Assembly (NCBI GenBank): GCA_014730075.1
Contig: WJIX01000240.1
Coordinates: 1 to 33,609 of the forward strand
DNA length: 33,609 bases
Source of the DNA: a bacterium
GTDB taxonomy: Bacteria; Krumholzibacteriota; Krumholzibacteriia; Krumholzibacteriales; WJIX01
Reading direction: 5' to 3'
Shown one piece after another: positions 4,736 to 20,981 of this stretch. The notes under the pieces were generated by a model, which saw only the letters and a list, made by a program, of their open reading frames with translations, was not told the DNA's origin and ran no database searches. Each line of letters opens with the position of its first letter. Within the stretch, counting starts at the first letter, position 1. A program made the position numbers and the translations under genes.

Positions 4736-5863
4736 TCAGTTGCTCAGGGTCATCATTACCCGGATAGCCTCCTCGAAATCACTCCTGGTGATAACTCCCA
4801 GAAGACTCCCCTGGTTATTTACAACCGGGTATGATTCATACTTCCGGGCATTGATCAGATGAAAGACCCTTGCCGGGGAGCTGCTCAACCCTATCACATA
4901 ATCGGTAAGATTGGTGTTGATAACATCCTTTACTTCCAGCTCGGGCCTCTTCTCCGGATCAATCTTCTTGACGTCGCCGATAGTGACTATACCCAGCATT
5001 CTCCCATCAGAGACTACCGGGAAGAAATAGGAGTGGTACTTCTCGAAATATTCATCCATCAGGGTCTGCAGATCCATGGTCAGGCCTACCGTAACCACAT
5101 TCTTCCTGACCAGATCCGAGATATCAAGCCTCTTCATAACCTGGTGGTAGAGGATGGCTCCGTAACTTCTAATCGCTGCCTGCCTCAGAAAGGTACCTAT
5201 TATCATCAGCCAGATCCCGCCGATGAAGTTTCCGTAGAATATCAGGCTGAAGAGGCCGAGTCCTATGAGAAAAAGCGCGAAGTACTTGCCTATCCTGCTG
5301 GCTATATCGGTCGCCCTTACGATATTCTTCTTTCTGTACCAGATAATCGCCCGCAGGATCCTGCCCCCGTCCAGCGGAAAGCCGGGGACCATATTAAACA
5401 GGAAGATTACTATATTTATATAGACCAGCGATTCGAACAGTACCGACAGAGCCCGGATGGAGCGAAAAAGCAGAGAAAGCAGGAAGAACAGACCTGCCAG
5501 GACAAGGGTCATGGCCGGCCCGGCTGATGCCATTTTCAGCTCCACCACCGGGTCCTCCACCTCGTTCTCCATGTGGGCGACTCCACCGAACATGAACAGG
5601 GTTATCTTTCCTATAGGAAGGCCATTTTTCTTGGCCACCAGCGAATGGCTGAACTCGTGCAGCAGGATGGAAAGGAAGAGAAAAAGGGAAGCGAAGAAAG
5701 CCATTATCCACAGCTGGGTGGTTGAAAAGATCCCGGGATAGCTCTCCGAGTAGAACCCCGTGGCGAAACTCCAGGTCATCAGTACCAGTATGACCAGCCA
5801 GCTGATATGGACCTGTACCGGTATGCCCCAGAGTTTGAAAAGGTGAAGAGACCTCTTAAACAT
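4736..5863 (-). CDS. Site-2-protease-type M50 membrane metalloprotease with C-terminal CBS pair
   Basis: HExxH 'LLHEFSHSLVA', 'NMVPGFPLDGGRILRA', then two CBS-like repeats ('VTVGLTMDLQTLMDEYF..YFFPVVSDGRMLGIVTIGDVKKI' and '..ARKYESYPVVNNQGSLLGVITRSDF'). Confidence 0.92.
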   Translation of the reverse strand: MFKRSLHLFKLWGIPVQVHISWLVILVLMTWSFATGFYSESYPGIFSTTQLWIMAFFASLFLFLSILLHEFSHSLVAKKNGLPIGKITLFMFGGVAHMENEVEDPVVELKMASAGPAMTLVLAGLFFLLSLLFRSIRALSVLFESLVYINIVIFLFNMVPGFPLDGGRILRAIIWYRKKNIVRATDIASRIGKYFALFLIGLGLFSLIFYGNFIGGIWLMIIGTFLRQAAIRSYGAILYHQVMKRLDISDLVRKNVVTVGLTMDLQTLMDEYFEKYHSYFFPVVSDGRMLGIVTIGDVKKIDPEKRPELEVKDVINTNLTDYVIGLSSSPARVFHLINARKYESYPVVNNQGSLLGVITRSDFEEAIRVMMTLSN

Positions 5864-5884: not shown

Positions 5885-6259
5885 TCAGGAAGATGGCTGC
5901 AGCTCATCCTCGCTGTAATAACCGGAGAAACGGTTGGATTCGTCGACTCTGATGAAGAGGGGGTACCTCCGGTCCTCGGTCCACGCGAAGGTCATTATAT
6001 CCACGGCATCGCCCTCCTTGACCAGGTGCGCGGCAGCTCCGTTCATACAGATAACCCCCGAACCACGCCTGCCCTTAATCACGTAGGTCTGTAATCTGTT
6101 GCCATTGGTCCTGTCCACCACCAGCACATTCTCCTGCTCGCTCAGGTCAGCCTTCTCGATGAGGTCTTCATCTATGGTTATACTACCCACGTACCTCAGG
6201 TCCGCCTGGGTAACCCTGGCGTTCATTATCATTGACTTGAGTACGAGTCTTTTCATCAT
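5885..6259 (-). CDS. PanD-like pyruvoyl aspartate 1-decarboxylase family protein, divergent
   Basis: 'VTQADLRYVGSITIDEDLIEKADLSEQENVLVVDRTNGNRLQTYVIKGRRGSGVICMNGAAAHLVKEGDAVDI' aligns without gaps to PanD, including G24-S25, R54, T57, Y58 and N72-GAAAH. Start at 6259 or 6256 after GAGGTGG; the ORF track extends to 6280. Confidence 0.88.
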   Translation of the reverse strand: MMKRLVLKSMIMNARVTQADLRYVGSITIDEDLIEKADLSEQENVLVVDRTNGNRLQTYVIKGRRGSGVICMNGAAAHLVKEGDAVDIMTFAWTEDRRYPLFIRVDESNRFSGYYSEDELQPSS

Positions 6260-6352: not shown

Positions 6353-8089
6353 TTACAGCTTCATCCCCTCTATCTCGGTAAGATAACGCACGAAATGATT
6401 ATCTTCGTCAACCAGGATATTGCTGAAGTTGCCGCCCGTCTCGCTGGACCAGGTAAAGGCCATGATCCCTATCTCGTCGCCCTCCCGGATATGGTTTGCC
6501 ACCGCGCCGGAGGCAACCATCCTGCCGGAGCCCGGCCTGTCGGACACCGCAAAAGTCTCCAGCCTGGCCCCGTTGGTAGCATCCACTATCAGGATCTTCT
6601 CATACTGGTCGATATTTGCAAGTTTCATGATCTCCCCGTCTATCCTCAGGCAGTCGCTCATCTCCGGCTCGGTCCCGGTGATACTGGCCTTGTGGACCTT
6701 TGACTTGATTACCAGCCTGTCAGTGGTATCGGAGATGATGAACTTGGATTTGCCGGCGGGAGTCAGAGGTATCTCAGTGACTATCAGGAAGTTTACATGC
6801 ATATTGGCACCGCAGCAGTCCGATATCTTCTTCCTGAGGATACCGGTATTTTCATCTTTCCACCCCTGTTCCGGAACGATCCTGAAATCTATGGAGTTGA
6901 GCGCCTTCTGCTCTATCTGGAACCTCCTGATCCCGGGGACTGACCTGGACAGGCTGGTCCAGAAGAAACCGCCCACCGATTTTCCGTCCGGTGTCCTTAT
7001 GTTATCAAAGCTCCTGCCCTCCACCCGCTCCAGCAGGGGCAGCCCCCTGCCGCACTCGCATTTACGCCCGGCGGCTACAGCCACGTCCCCGGTCCGGTAA
7101 CGTATAAACGGCATGTACATATTCATCAGGTCGGTTACCACTATCTCACCCGCCTCCCCCGGACGGGCCGGCCTCCCCTCCTTATTTATCAGCTCCACCA
7201 GGTGTAGATCAGAGGCGATATGCAGGCCTCGATGCTCCTGGCACTCGAAGGCGACATCGGCAAACTCCCTGCTGCCGTAACTGTTATAGATCGGGGCGTT
7301 GAAGACCTCCTCAATCAGTTCTCTCTGCTTGGGATACAGGGTCTCCCCGCCTGTCACCACCGCCTCCGGCTTATGCAGGTTTATTGATTTCCTCCTGCAG
7401 TAACCGGCGAACTGGACCAGCGCGGATGGGTACCCGATTATCAGTTCAGGCTTGAAGGAGCGTTCCATGGCCGCGTATTTCTTCATCCTCGAATCAGACA
7501 TATCGAAAGTTGATATCAGCCTGGTATTATTGAAGTAGCTCCTGACTCTCCTGATTATACGTTCCTTCAGGCTCAGGTCCATATCCACACCCCAGAATTT
7601 CAGCTCCCTGGTACCTATATCAATCCCGGCTATCCGCAGCTGCCTCAGACGGTTGGCCCTCCGGAAAGGTATGGCGGCCCGGTCACAATAGAAATAGAGC
7701 GGAGCGCCGGTAGACCCGCCGGTACTGGAGGGATAACCGTTGCGAAGAGGGTCTCCGGTAATCAGCGACCGGGAATTGTCTTTTATCACATTCCTGGTCA
7801 GGTATGGTATCTTACGGAAATCATCCATATCCGAGATCTGGCGGACATTTATCCCCCTCCTCTTGAACAGCTCGCGGTAATAAGGAACATGAACTGACAC
7901 CTGTCTGAGAAGTTCCTGAAGCCTTCTCCACTGGAGGTCCTCGATTTCCCCGCTGGAGAGATACTGGTTGCCCTCCAGCTCCTCCAGGATAGCCAGGATC
8001 CGGTCCCTCTTGAATCCCCGGTAGATCGGATAGATCACATTTCTGACAAATGACGGAATCAGCGGCATAACAAATTCCCGGTTAAACAA
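6353..8089 (-). CDS. CapK/PaaK-type adenylate-forming enzyme with C-terminal PanD-like domain
   Basis: N-terminal ~455 aa: 'YYRELFKRRGI', 'SSTGGSTGAPLYFYCDR', 'YGSREFADVAFECQ', 'YMPFIRYRTGDVA'. C-terminal 121 aa align without gaps to the neighbouring PanD-like protein. The true start may be 8068 (MPLIPSFVRN). Confidence 0.9.
   Translation of the reverse strand: MFNREFVMPLIPSFVRNVIYPIYRGFKRDRILAILEELEGNQYLSSGEIEDLQWRRLQELLRQVSVHVPYYRELFKRRGINVRQISDMDDFRKIPYLTRNVIKDNSRSLITGDPLRNGYPSSTGGSTGAPLYFYCDRAAIPFRRANRLRQLRIAGIDIGTRELKFWGVDMDLSLKERIIRRVRSYFNNTRLISTFDMSDSRMKKYAAMERSFKPELIIGYPSALVQFAGYCRRKSINLHKPEAVVTGGETLYPKQRELIEEVFNAPIYNSYGSREFADVAFECQEHRGLHIASDLHLVELINKEGRPARPGEAGEIVVTDLMNMYMPFIRYRTGDVAVAAGRKCECGRGLPLLERVEGRSFDNIRTPDGKSVGGFFWTSLSRSVPGIRRFQIEQKALNSIDFRIVPEQGWKDENTGILRKKISDCCGANMHVNFLIVTEIPLTPAGKSKFIISDTTDRLVIKSKVHKASITGTEPEMSDCLRIDGEIMKLANIDQYEKILIVDATNGARLETFAVSDRPGSGRMVASGAVANHIREGDEIGIMAFTWSSETGGNFSNILVDEDNHFVRYLTEIEGMKL
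6356..6718 (-). other. PanD-like domain encoded at the C-terminus of the CapK-like protein
   Basis: 'RLVIKSKVHKASITGTEPEMSDCLRIDGEIMKLANIDQYEKILIVDATNGARLETFAVSDRPGSGRMVASGAVANHIREGDEIGIMAFTW' matches the adjacent PanD-like protein position by position. Confidence 0.85.
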
Positions 8090-15977: not shown

Positions 15978-16691
15978 CTATAGATTGATAAAATCGTCGG
16001 AGACGAAATCCTTGAATCTCTTATTGTATTTCCTGTATATCCTGTCGGTCCCCTCGGTGAAATTTACCGTGGGAGGCCGCCAGGGGTTGCGGTAGATCAC
16101 CGGTATCAGGTTGACGGCATGCCTCCCCACTCCGGTGGGCCCATAGAATACGCTTCCCGAGCTGCTTCTGATCCCCTCTATTTCCGTTACATTTATGGCG
16201 GTCCTTCTCGATTCCGGGTAGAAAACCACCTCGAATCTGAAACTCTCTATGGGGCATACGTAATAATCTTCCAGCGTGTTTATCCACTGCTCGACCGCTT
16301 TCTTAAGTCCGGGCGGAGCCTTTTCAGGGAGTTCGAAATAAATCTCCAGCTCCCGGTAATCCCTGTTCACCACCTCAACGGAGAGGCATATGGAGGACCC
16401 TATTCCTGAAAACTCCCTGAGCTCGGTGACCGGCATTTTCTCGTAATCCCGTACATGGGGATGGACCACTACCGGACCTCCCAGCAGGTTGATTCCGGCG
16501 GTCCCGAATTCCTCCCGGTCATAGATGGAGCTGTATTTGAAGACTGGCCGGGTATTTATCTCGGCAGGCAAAAACGAGAAGATCAGAACGGCCGCCAGGA
16601 CCGCTCCCGCGATTGCGGGGACGAACCTTACCAGCTGCCTGACAGATCTCTCCAGGTATATCGCTCCCTTTTCCTTCATGAAATCAGCCAT
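15978..16691 (-). CDS. Single-pass membrane-anchored periplasmic protein in the TonB position of the operon
   Basis: Short cytoplasmic N-terminus, one TM ('FVPAIAGAVLAAVLIFSFL'), periplasmic domain with a TonB-CTD-like pattern ('YFELPEKAPPGLKKAVEQWINTLEDYYVCPIESFRFEVVFYPES'). Its start overlaps the ExbD stop. Confidence 0.6.
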   Translation of the reverse strand: MADFMKEKGAIYLERSVRQLVRFVPAIAGAVLAAVLIFSFLPAEINTRPVFKYSSIYDREEFGTAGINLLGGPVVVHPHVRDYEKMPVTELREFSGIGSSICLSVEVVNRDYRELEIYFELPEKAPPGLKKAVEQWINTLEDYYVCPIESFRFEVVFYPESRRTAINVTEIEGIRSSSGSVFYGPTGVGRHAVNLIPVIYRNPWRPPTVNFTEGTDRIYRKYNKRFKDFVSDDFINL

Positions 16692-17325
16692 CTTTTCTGA
16701 TCACCCTGCCTTCCAGGTCCAGGTTTACCATGCTCAGGCGGTGGAGGAGCTGGTCGATCGAATCCATGGTAATCACCTCATGCCTGGAGACCCCTTCCTT
16801 TCTGCAGACCCTGATCACCCGGTGCACGGAAGAGAACCTTTCGCCACCACCGCATAGAATTACCGCCCTGTCCGGGTTGTTCCTTCTCAGGGACTCGGCC
16901 AGGTGTTCGGGGTTCTGGTACAGGCCGCTCTCCACCAGAAAGTAATCCAGCCTCATCCTGATATCATCTATCTTTGACTGGATACTTCCTCCCCCTTTCA
17001 GTATCCGCTCGATCTCTCCCGAAAGCCCTTCAAAATCAAGGTCGGGGCTGTGTGAATTGGCGGCCCCGCTCATCTGGAGATAGCAGGTCCTGGAGAGACC
17101 GCCGCTTCCAACCGGGAGAACCGCTATAAGAGCCTTTCCCCCCGCCTTATGCCGGCTGTCCATCATTTCGATACCATAGGTACCCTCCAGGTCTTCGCTG
17201 CCGCCCAGGGCCGCTGAAATATTAAGGGTAACCAGGAAGAATATCAGAAGAAGAAAAATCACGTCGATAAGTGGCACCAGCTCGATTCTTCTTCTTGATT
17301 CACCTGTCTCGAGGTTACTGCCCAT
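16684..17325 (-). CDS. ExbD/TolR family protein (second copy)
   Basis: 'RRRIELVPLIDVIFLLLIFFLVTLN' TM with conserved Asp; C-terminal 'NPDRAVILCGGGERFSSVHRVIRVCRKEGV'. Confidence 0.9.
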   Translation of the reverse strand: MGSNLETGESRRRIELVPLIDVIFLLLIFFLVTLNISAALGGSEDLEGTYGIEMMDSRHKAGGKALIAVLPVGSGGLSRTCYLQMSGAANSHSPDLDFEGLSGEIERILKGGGSIQSKIDDIRMRLDYFLVESGLYQNPEHLAESLRRNNPDRAVILCGGGERFSSVHRVIRVCRKEGVSRHEVITMDSIDQLLHRLSMVNLDLEGRVIRKDG

Positions 17326-17357
17326 TTATATCCTGTCCTCCATATATTTACTTATCC

Positions 17358-18071
17358 TTATACCTTCATGGCGTGAATCCGTATCCCGCCGATATCCACA
17401 CCCCTTCTCTCCAGAACCCGGAAAGCCGACTTGACAAAGAACATATACATATCCTCCGGCATCCTGATGTGGATCCCCGGACTGTCCCCGCCACCTATCA
17501 ATCTACTCATCGAATTGATCTTTCGCTCCAGCTCCTCTTCCTCCCGCTGGCTCAGGGCCCGGGGAGCAGCCGGCAGAAAATCGGGATAGAACAGGAAGAG
17601 TTCCCTGGCTTTTTCAATTATCAGTTCACCGGACATACCCTCTTCCAGCTTCCTTATCAGTCCCTCCGCGCTCTCCCTGAAGCCTGATATATCGGAATAT
17701 CCCAACCCCCCGCATACCGATACCATGAATCCATCCTCGGGGACCGGCTGAAAAACTCTCTCCATTCCAAGCTTCGCTGACAGCTCCATGAACGAACTTC
17801 TGAGATCCTCTATCATATCCCTTTTCATCCCATTCCCTTCGGCCAGGTCGAAGACATCGATCATAAGATAGCTCCCCTGAATCCTGTTGGGATTCTCAAT
17901 CACCGGCAACCTGGACTGCTGCTCTCCCTTTCCTTCGCCGGTATTGCCGCTTCCCAGGTTGGTAGACATGGTCACCAGAAAGAATATCAGGAGAATGAAT
18001 ATTATGTCGATCAGCGGGGTCTTGCCCGGCTCTCTTCTTGATATCCTGGTATTCATCGAAAATCTGTTCAT
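17358..18071 (-). CDS. ExbD/TolR family protein (first copy)
   Basis: 'KTPLIDIIFILLIFFLVTMSTN' TM with conserved Asp. Start placed at 18071 (MNRFSMNTRIS), 1 bp after the upstream stop; the ORF track extends to 18182. Confidence 0.9.
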   Translation of the reverse strand: MNRFSMNTRISRREPGKTPLIDIIFILLIFFLVTMSTNLGSGNTGEGKGEQQSRLPVIENPNRIQGSYLMIDVFDLAEGNGMKRDMIEDLRSSFMELSAKLGMERVFQPVPEDGFMVSVCGGLGYSDISGFRESAEGLIRKLEEGMSGELIIEKARELFLFYPDFLPAAPRALSQREEEELERKINSMSRLIGGGDSPGIHIRMPEDMYMFFVKSAFRVLERRGVDIGGIRIHAMKV

Positions 18072-18072
18072 A

Positions 18073-19395
18073 CTAAATCCTACCCCCCGCGGCGGCTCTA
18101 GCCAGACTCTCCTCAGATTTCTTCTCCACTCCGGATTCGGGCGAAACTGTACCCTCCCGGATGATATAATCTTCCTGCACAACCTGCGTGAGTGTATTCT
18201 CCACCGCGGAATCCACCCTGAGGGCGATCCTGGATCTTCTGAACTGAATCAGGTAGTAGAAAAGAAGAAAGAGTATCCCAACTATCAGGCCGAAAACGGT
18301 GGTGTTCAGAGCCAGATGGATCCCGCCGGAGAGATTCTCCAGCACCGCCCTGTTCTGCCCGGTTACAATAGTTTTTATCTTCAGATAGAGCCCCCCGAAA
18401 GAGTCGGAGATACCGATCACCGTGCCCAGGAGTCCCACCATCGGAGCCAGTACCCCGAAGCAGCGGATCATCTCTGCCGAGATCACCCAGCTCAACATCC
18501 TCCCCCCAGGTTCCAGCTCCCGGCTGAGCTGCCTGTTAACCCCCGAGTACATCCTGCTTCTCAATCTTTCGAGCTCGCGGCAGTTTCTGGCCGAATCGGC
18601 GCCGCCGGGATTCGAATGCAGCCTCCTGCGGTACTCATCCACGCCGGCCCTTATCTCCATCCGACTGAGCACAGGACATCCCTCCGTGGCCCTCTGCGCC
18701 TCCTCCAGCCCATCCGCATCCTTCACCTTTTCTGATGCGGCCGCCAGGTTCTCGAATTCACTCCCGTATAACCGGCGAAGGTGAACGTAAACGCTGAAAA
18801 GCCCCCATATAAGAATAATTATCAGGAGCGAGGCGATAACCCCTCCGTCGGAAACCGTCCTCCGGAGGCCAGCCAGGTTCTCCCGCACCGCTTTCCTGCT
18901 GCCCGGATATACCGTATCAGGCCTGGCCGTTATCTCCGCGGTCCCCAGCATGGGATCGCGGTTAAATCTTCTGCTGAACGGAGCCGATATGTCTCGATAT
19001 TCACCGCTTTCTTCCAGGGATACCGAAGCTGAAACGATCTCGCCCCGGTTGATGGTAAAATCGCCCAGGGATCTTCGGATCTTCAGATCACCTGAGTTTC
19101 CGACCGGGGACCCGTTGAAATAAACCGTGAAGGAGCACCCTTCCGGCTTCCGGATATCCCGGAAAAGAGGCTGGGCGAGGTCACCGCTCTCAATCTCCCG
19201 CCAGTTAAGGACCTCTTTGAGCTTCCACTCCAGCCTCAGCACACCGCTCCCGTCATTACGTTCGATTCCGGCATTGGTAATCTCCACTACGCAGTCCCTG
19301 CCCGCCCCTGAAGGTGATCCCGGCAGGGCCGCGAGCAGGATGGCCGCGAGAATCAAGCCCCCGGCCAATCCCTGATTTCTTTTTGATCTTCTCAT
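18073..19395 (-). CDS. ExbB/TolQ/MotA family protein with large N-terminal periplasmic domain (second copy)
   Basis: 'VLAPMVGLLGTVIGISDSFGGL' and 'SGGIHLALNTTVFGLIVGILFLLFYYLI'. Signal peptide plus ~150-aa extracytoplasmic region before the first ExbB TM. Confidence 0.92.
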   Translation of the reverse strand: MRRSKRNQGLAGGLILAAILLAALPGSPSGAGRDCVVEITNAGIERNDGSGVLRLEWKLKEVLNWREIESGDLAQPLFRDIRKPEGCSFTVYFNGSPVGNSGDLKIRRSLGDFTINRGEIVSASVSLEESGEYRDISAPFSRRFNRDPMLGTAEITARPDTVYPGSRKAVRENLAGLRRTVSDGGVIASLLIIILIWGLFSVYVHLRRLYGSEFENLAAASEKVKDADGLEEAQRATEGCPVLSRMEIRAGVDEYRRRLHSNPGGADSARNCRELERLRSRMYSGVNRQLSRELEPGGRMLSWVISAEMIRCFGVLAPMVGLLGTVIGISDSFGGLYLKIKTIVTGQNRAVLENLSGGIHLALNTTVFGLIVGILFLLFYYLIQFRRSRIALRVDSAVENTLTQVVQEDYIIREGTVSPESGVEKKSEESLARAAAGGRI

Positions 19396-19400
19396 CCCGG

Positions 19401-20981
19401 CTACGCCTCGTTGGTTATATCCACTATAAAGTTCTCTATGCTTGCCGCTTTCTTGCTGATGGTATTCTTGAACAGGTAGTACATGGTGAATGAAAGTATA
19501 CCCAGCACCAGCCCCACTATGGTGGTGGAGAGAGCGACATTGATCTCCCCTGAAAGCTCACTAATTATCTTGCTCTGGCTGTGAAGCCCGCCCAGTTTGC
19601 CAAAGGCGGTGGATATTCCCACCACGGTCCCGAACAGCCCTACCAGAGGGCTGATGCTGCCAATAGTCCAGAGTTTGTCCACAATCCTGTTCCTGCGGTC
19701 CACCTTGGTAACGATGACCCTGTCTATGGCCCTGTCTATCTCCTGAGAGGCCCACCAGTTATTCTGGTTGATCAGGTGGTTGTGCAGGCCGGCCTTGAGT
19801 ATCTCGAAAAGATCGAATCTCCTGTCAGCGATACCGCTGATGATCTCCTTGATCCTGGGCCTGGCATAGTCGTGCCATTCCCCGCGGGAGTCCGGGCCGG
19901 TGCAGATATCGGCAAAATCTTTCATATCATCCACTTCGACTCTCACCCTCTTCTCTTCCTGCCCGGTTATATCGTTACCGGAGCTGGCGGCCAGGCGTTC
20001 CACGTCCACCGATTTGCCCAGCACCTCTTTCACGAAGGGATAGTCAACAGCTTTCCTGATGATCTCCCCGGCACTTAGTTCCCGGCCTTCCCGGAGTCCG
20101 GCAACGAACTGCCGGATCTGCTCCTTCTGGGGGTCGGCCGCGCCGGTCTTCAGAATGATGCTGACCCAGCGGGCTCTCGCATCGGCCACCTTCCCGCCGA
20201 ACATCTGATTTACATCGGTAAATGGTATTATCCCGGCCAGCCGGCTGTCACCCGGTGACCAGGCGCTCATTGATGATTTTATGGCGCTGTAGAGAAACCA
20301 GAGAAACAGCAGGAATATCACCCCGAACACATACTGGAAAAGGTGCTCGTAGTGGTCCATATTATGCCAGATGGTGTAGACTATCTCCCCGATACCCTTG
20401 CCCGCAGGTTTTCCCATGGAGGGGGGTATCTCAGTCAATTCTATTCTCCCGGCATTAATCCCTCTTGCCGCCACCAGCCGGGATGGCCGGTCATGAGGCA
20501 ACTGGTATCCCTCCCTGAGGGAGGTCATTGCCCTGGCGCTGATCTCTATCCTGGGCCTTCCCTCACCCCTGCCCGGCTTGACCACCGTGAAATCAAGATA
20601 ATTGGGGCCGGCTCCGGGGTCCACGGCACCACCGGTGTAATTCCAGCTGTCCACAATCCCTGATACGTATTCCCACATCTCAGCGGGTCCGCTGCGCAGG
20701 CTCTCTACCAGAATGGCAGTCCTGTAAACATCACCGCTTTCTCCAATATAGGCCCGGACTGTTACACGCCCCGGACTCATTGAATTCAAATCCAATTCAT
20801 CCTGCGCGGGAGGGTCCAGCCTGAAATCCGCGGCTGCCAGGCCGGAGGACTGAACAACTAATATCGCCGTCAGAACCAGCGGCACCAGAACCCGGGTGTA
20901 AACTCGCGTCGTTTTCATCTTAACCTGCCTTCTCCGATTCTCAGCGGCCCGCCGTACCGGCTTTCTGACCCGCGGCATCAT
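19401..20981 (-). CDS. ExbB/TolQ/MotA family protein with N-terminal TonB-CTD-like periplasmic domain (first copy)
   Basis: 'SPLVGLFGTVVGISTAFGKLG' and 'SGEINVALSTTIVGLVLGILSFTMYYLF'. The likely true start is 20918 (MKTTRVYTRVLVPLVLTAILVV signal). Confidence 0.92.
   Translation of the reverse strand: MMPRVRKPVRRAAENRRRQVKMKTTRVYTRVLVPLVLTAILVVQSSGLAAADFRLDPPAQDELDLNSMSPGRVTVRAYIGESGDVYRTAILVESLRSGPAEMWEYVSGIVDSWNYTGGAVDPGAGPNYLDFTVVKPGRGEGRPRIEISARAMTSLREGYQLPHDRPSRLVAARGINAGRIELTEIPPSMGKPAGKGIGEIVYTIWHNMDHYEHLFQYVFGVIFLLFLWFLYSAIKSSMSAWSPGDSRLAGIIPFTDVNQMFGGKVADARARWVSIILKTGAADPQKEQIRQFVAGLREGRELSAGEIIRKAVDYPFVKEVLGKSVDVERLAASSGNDITGQEEKRVRVEVDDMKDFADICTGPDSRGEWHDYARPRIKEIISGIADRRFDLFEILKAGLHNHLINQNNWWASQEIDRAIDRVIVTKVDRRNRIVDKLWTIGSISPLVGLFGTVVGISTAFGKLGGLHSQSKIISELSGEINVALSTTIVGLVLGILSFTMYYLFKNTISKKAASIENFIVDITNEA
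20577..20771 (-). other. TonB C-terminal-domain-like segment at the N-terminus of ExbB
   Basis: 'GRVTVRAYIGESGDVYRTAILVESLRSGPAEMWEYVSGIVDSWNYTG...NYLDFTVV' follows the G-x-V-x-V...G-x-V...V..S...W.Y...F pattern. Confidence 0.5.

Follow-up and report, generated by a model that had tools for sequence, protein, structure and literature searches.

Two neighbouring genes of a Krumholzibacteriota contig appear to encode an aspartate decarboxylase (PanD) whose active site is divided between them. The first gene, F, fuses a CapK/PaaK-type adenylate-forming enzyme to a PanD-like domain, and the second, S, encodes a stand-alone PanD. Judged from sequence, and with a probability of roughly two in three, F and S are PanD paralogues that work only together, share an active site and constitute the only β-alanine-making PanD of one order of this phylum. 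The pair lies in the window, the 33,609-nucleotide stretch of contig WJIX01000240.1 (assembly GCA_014730075.1) that was analysed, with the following features:

6353..8089, minus strand: F, the CapK-PanD fusion gene, an open frame of 578 codons without stops
6353-6355, minus strand: stop codon of F
8068 (ATG) or 8089 (TTG, the mechanical ORF start), minus strand: start options of F
6740..8068, minus strand: CapK/PaaK-type adenylation domain of F, from NCBIfam and PDB sequence matches and motifs
6356..6718, minus strand: PanD-like domain of F, with a predicted PanD fold and without a pyruvoyl site
5885..6256, minus strand: S, a stand-alone PanD of 123 aa with its ATG at 6256; the mechanical ORF reaches GTG 6280
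4736..5863, minus strand: M50 site-2-type protease with CBS domains, the next gene after S in the window and in most relatives

Judged by its homologues, F is probably translated from ATG 8068 (571 aa) and not from TTG 8089. The adenylate-forming domain occupies residues ~1-450 and the PanD-like domain residues ~456-578. The Pfam model Asp_decarbox matched residues 459-565 with an E-value of 1.2e-20 and 74 bits (cut-off 25). The Pfam AMP-binding match was weak (22.6 bits, under the cut-off of 29.9), and residues ~40-450 affiliated with the PaaK/CapK-like group with best E-values of 3e-40 (NCBIfam) and 1e-37 (PDB sequence search). These matches bear out the naming of both domains in a preliminary description of this DNA, which also placed the PanD-like span correctly at 6356-6718; the missing cleavage site of the F domain and the stand-alone S at 6256-5885 were absent from it. 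The fold predicted for the F domain had a pLDDT of 92.5 (alignment of 41 sequences), and its 40 PDB matches at E <= 0.001 were all PanD. Structures were predicted for single chains, and the domain arrangement of full-length F (pLDDT 60) was left out of consideration.

The fusion was intact in 17 of the 25 genomes of the order, with partial copies in most others, and none was found outside the order in the related genomes searched. Among 58 related genomes, the same stop-free two-domain protein of ~573 aa occurred throughout the order (families f1 and f2) at 52-62% identity, and outside the order CapK and PanD were present only as separate proteins. A search of 146 genomes returned matches spanning 571-573 positions inside the order and matches stopping near position 450 outside it; the ten matching genomes beyond the class had CapK-only matches. 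In G002, G009, G014, G016, G019 and G021 the copy was interrupted, be it at a contig end, by a run of N or by an internal gap. No fused copy was seen in two of the order's 25 genomes, G017, with the CapK part at a contig end, and G023, which is 61% complete. When GTDB as a whole was scanned with the fused domain, most matching contigs were labelled Candidatus Krumholzibacteriota. The recognisable fusions carried the labels Krumholzibacteriota, 'bacterium', UBP1 or, once, Latescibacterota, and the remaining matches were ordinary one-chain PanDs; the GTDB scan with the whole F protein as query gave no matches. A Planctomycetota locus with a long open frame (L112) was judged not to be a fusion. 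One genome of the order, G007, holds a second intact CapK-PanD fusion (L039, G007:C148) without an adjoining S and with glycosyltransferase-like genes beside it.

The fusion is thus real, as the preliminary description had proposed, since the same stop-free two-domain protein recurs in other genomes of the order with dN far below dS in both halves. A frameshift or a chance fusion is excluded by these conserved full-length copies. For the PanD part of F, comparisons of close pairs gave a dN of 0.02-0.15 at a dS >0.5. Its dN/dS was ~0.04-0.14 where dS was finite, with similar values for S and the CapK part, which rules out that the PanD domain of F is a pseudogene.

S starts 96 bp after F in the window and directly follows F throughout the order wherever the sequence beyond F is readable. 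The two genes are co-oriented neighbours, with a gap of 34-182 bp in 18 of 19 pairs; the single long gap, 1,171 bp, was seen at L049 (G022:C262). S scored above the curated panD model TIGR00223 (118.9 bits, cut-off 106) and matched the M. tuberculosis PanD 2c45 with an E-value of 6e-28. No further PanD above the Pfam cut-off was detected in the F/S-bearing genomes of the order. The S sequences formed a single clade (support 100/99), as did the F sequences (100/100), and the branching of the two clades largely agreed; a sister relationship between them was neither demonstrated nor rejected (AU p 0.39).

The residues of the two PanD chains differ in a reciprocal manner. Lys9, His11, Tyr22, Gly24, Pyr25, Arg54, Thr57, Tyr58, Gly73, Ala74 and Ala75 are among the strictly conserved residues of PanD, and Lys9* and Arg54* belong to a different subunit from Pyr25, Thr57 and Tyr58 (PMC3314653); Arg54* is likewise contributed by the neighbouring subunit in a further study (PMC6969166). 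The relevant positions in the window are:

6698..6700, minus strand: K464 of F, equivalent to PanD Lys9 and present in every fused domain read; H466, equivalent to His11, is also kept
6650..6655, minus strand: D479-C480 of F, in place of the Gly24-Ser25 cleavage site
6551..6553, minus strand: F513 of F, in place of Tyr58
6509..6511, minus strand: S527 of F, at the Asn72 position, where most relatives have Cys
6230..6232, minus strand: Met9 of S, where PanD has the catalytic Lys9; Met also stands at the His11 position
6182..6187, minus strand: Gly24-Ser25 of S, at which self-cleavage and pyruvoyl formation are expected

All 18 S proteins have Met9 and Leu or Met at position 11, and hence have lost Lys9 and His11, and all 18 keep Tyr22, Gly24, Ser25, Arg54, Thr57, Tyr58 and Asn72. 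The 17 fused domains without exception retain Lys9, His11 and Arg54 and carry Asp24 for Gly24. Position 25 is Cys in 13 of them, Ser in two and Gly in two, and none retains Tyr22, Tyr58 or Asn72. Since Lys9* and Arg54* belong to the neighbouring subunit in published structures, F has kept the residues that act in trans and S those that act in cis; Arg54 is present in both chains, so that one of the two expected trans residues has not been lost in S. The full complement stood in one chain in all 36 aligned PanDs from other lineages, a uniformity that at Lys9 and His11 is partly a matter of selection because the pattern by which these sequences were partly gathered favours those two residues. 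Lys9 and His11 were also present in all ten other Krumholzibacteriota PanDs, which were found by Pfam search.

With Asp24 and without Tyr58 and Asn72, the F domain is unlikely to have a working pyruvoyl site. According to their PDB titles, the E. coli PanD mutant S25C is processed and H11A is unprocessed. Cys25 alone would therefore not preclude cleavage of F, and S, with Leu or Met at position 11, may cleave itself poorly unless F helps. F also fell short of the curated model TIGR00223, with 56.8 bits (61.4 for the domain alone) at the cut-off of 106. The earlier suggestion of amino acid decarboxylation by the fused domain finds no support in these residues, as Gly24, Tyr58 and Asn72 are missing in all copies read and Ser25 in most. 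Because the F domain is without the cofactor-site residues, any decarboxylation must come from S, which in turn is probably unable to work by itself. Positions 25 and 72 are hydrogen-bonded neighbours in the PanD zymogen. Both are Cys in most fused domains (C480 and S527 in the F of the window), and a thiol pair or a metal site is conceivable there.

The heteromeric PanD is favoured because the reciprocal loss follows the published cis/trans division, which the other explanations do not predict. S would be cleaved at Gly24-Ser25 and carry the pyruvoyl group together with Thr57, Tyr58 and Asn72. F, tethered to the CapK-type enzyme, would be the neighbouring subunit that lends Lys9, Arg54 and probably His11 across the interface. 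Were the chains to alternate as S-F-S-F in a ring, each of the two S-to-F interfaces would form a whole active site, and both F-to-S interfaces would be inactive. F would also help the maturation of S in trans, and the pair would convert aspartate to β-alanine.

Instead, the F domain might be a ligand-binding pseudoenzyme that tunes the CapK activity by binding aspartate or β-alanine via Lys9 and Arg54, with S as an independent homotetramer. The carboxylate-binding Lys9 and Arg54 are exactly what F retains, together with the fold. However, this explanation leaves the invariable loss of Lys9 and His11 in S and the strict pairing of F and S unaccounted for, and we consider it unlikely.

The biosynthetic setting also bears on the function of S. 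The genes panC and panB were each present in 55 of 58 genomes, the genome of the window among them (G000:C14). A PLP decarboxylase of PF00282, a broad family and a possible alternative source of β-alanine, was found in five of the 25 genomes of the order and in all 23 PanD-less relatives outside it. The genome G001 (two contigs, 97% complete) contains panB, panC, F and S, and neither a further PanD nor a PF00282 protein was found in it. Given that panB and panC are present, no other PanD was detected and PF00282 is mostly absent, the F/S pair is the likely β-alanine source of the order, although β-alanine could come from elsewhere. The PF00282 proteins of the PanD-less genomes outside the order suggest that, across the phylum, one β-alanine source has been replaced by another.

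This setting speaks against a homomeric, neofunctionalised S that decarboxylates another substrate by means of its pyruvoyl group, next to an F domain that only tethers or oligomerises CapK. Lys9 pairs with the α-carboxylate of the substrate (PMC3314653), so its loss could shift the specificity, and S still scores above the curated PanD cut-off (118.9 against 106). Yet F would then have no need of Lys9 and His11 in every copy, and genomes with panB and panC would be left without another PanD and mostly without a PLP decarboxylase. This explanation is improbable and ranks behind the pseudoenzyme. Decay of the fused domain to a remnant, or a sequencing frameshift as the source of the fusion, would agree with the missing cofactor site and is nevertheless hardly credible given the intact stop-free copies in many genomes, a dN/dS well <1 and the invariant Lys9, His11 and Arg54.

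The CapK part of F contains the motifs SSTGGSTG (121-128), YGSREF (271-276), YRTGD (331-335) and AGKSKF with the C-terminal lysine K447. Their conservation was read across 16 fusions, and three f1 relatives have Gln for the Glu of YGSREF. Since no equivalog cut-off was reached among the named subfamilies (PaaK, FlxY, DVU_1553; 138 vs 300 and 134 vs 520 bits), the substrate is not readable from the family match. The CapK domain is probably a functional adenylating enzyme held beside a β-alanine source. Adenylation beside a β-alanine source is the chemistry of PanC. The CapK domain could in principle replace PanC by activating pantoate, with the PanD part supplying β-alanine for pantothenate, and its adenylation motifs would suit this role; the normal panC and panB in nearly all genomes of the order, including that of the window, make such a replacement highly implausible.

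The surroundings of F point to the cell surface. In several f2 genomes a glycosyltransferase, a polysaccharide deacetylase, F, S and the M50/CBS protease follow in this order; the f1 order is F, S and the M50/CBS protease. Upstream of F in the window are a flippase and a sulfotransferase gene in divergent orientation. Two gene pairs resembling, by eye, ExbD/ExbB-type transport parts were seen at 16684-20981. A close CapK paralogue without PanD is part of a polysaccharide cluster in G009 (L160 7310-8473, G009:C65), and a second one occurs in G011 (L051). The L160 paralogue has its stop exactly where the PanD domain starts in the fusion. The neighbouring genes and the paralogue in the polysaccharide cluster support a surface-glycan role for the CapK part, whose substrate, activated for such a glycan, may be β-alanine or a different carboxylate. 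The surface-polymer link drawn in the preliminary description thus fits as far as gene context is concerned, with the glycosyltransferase and deacetylase in one family and the CapK paralogue in the polysaccharide cluster. Only tentatively do we extend the heteromeric PanD to an S2F2 complex that would be needed for maturation and catalysis, with F giving Lys9 and His11 in trans, and from which β-alanine would be handed to CapK for glycan decoration. If so, vitamin B5 supply and envelope modification would be joined in one complex.

If the main reading is true, the pair represents a heteromeric aspartate decarboxylase for which two genes each supply part of one active site. It would be a clean example, from bacteria, of complementary degeneration ending in an obligate complex, and one that can be traced by residue. 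It would also connect β-alanine with the type of adenylating enzyme that occurs in polysaccharide clusters, so that the substrate of one CapK-type enzyme becomes testable. For annotation, the pair is a warning, as the fused domain would be named an active PanD even though it is without the cofactor site, and S is probably not self-sufficient.

Neither a CapK-PanD fusion nor a heteromeric PanD was found to be described in the literature searched, and the novelty that the fusion had seemed to have is in agreement with this. The CapK/PaaK-type acyl ligases BT_0428 (PDB 4r1l) and PaaK (2y27) have the adenylation motifs and the C-terminal lysine in common with the N-terminal four fifths of F, and their matches end at about F residue 450. 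The PanDs of E. coli and M. tuberculosis share with S the fold, sequence, cleavage site and most active-site residues, and their active sites are located at subunit interfaces as proposed for S and F. Known PanDs, however, are homotetramers with all catalytic residues in one chain, whereas here these residues are divided over two genes, one of them fused to CapK. A second protein at the PanD interfaces is known from PanZ/PanM, which is required for cofactor formation (PMC4410942); PanZ belongs to the GNAT family and occurs in some Gammaproteobacteria, whereas F is a PanD paralogue. The nearest parallels to F and S are the trypanosomatid pairs of an enzyme and its dead paralogue. AdoMetDC and its prozyme combine a pyruvoyl decarboxylase with a catalytically dead paralogue, as S and F would do; AdoMetDC is a different enzyme, and its heterodimer is activated by relief of autoinhibition, whereas for S and F a shared site is predicted and the dead partner is fused to CapK (PMC5201418). 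In trypanosomatid deoxyhypusine synthase, an impaired and a dead paralogue form an active 2:2 tetramer, and the human homotetramer has interface active sites (PMC3663545). The enzyme and the lineage differ, and the pairing of S and F is predicted from sequence only. By their residues, S and F likewise place a dead paralogue beside an impaired one, as in prozyme-type pairs.
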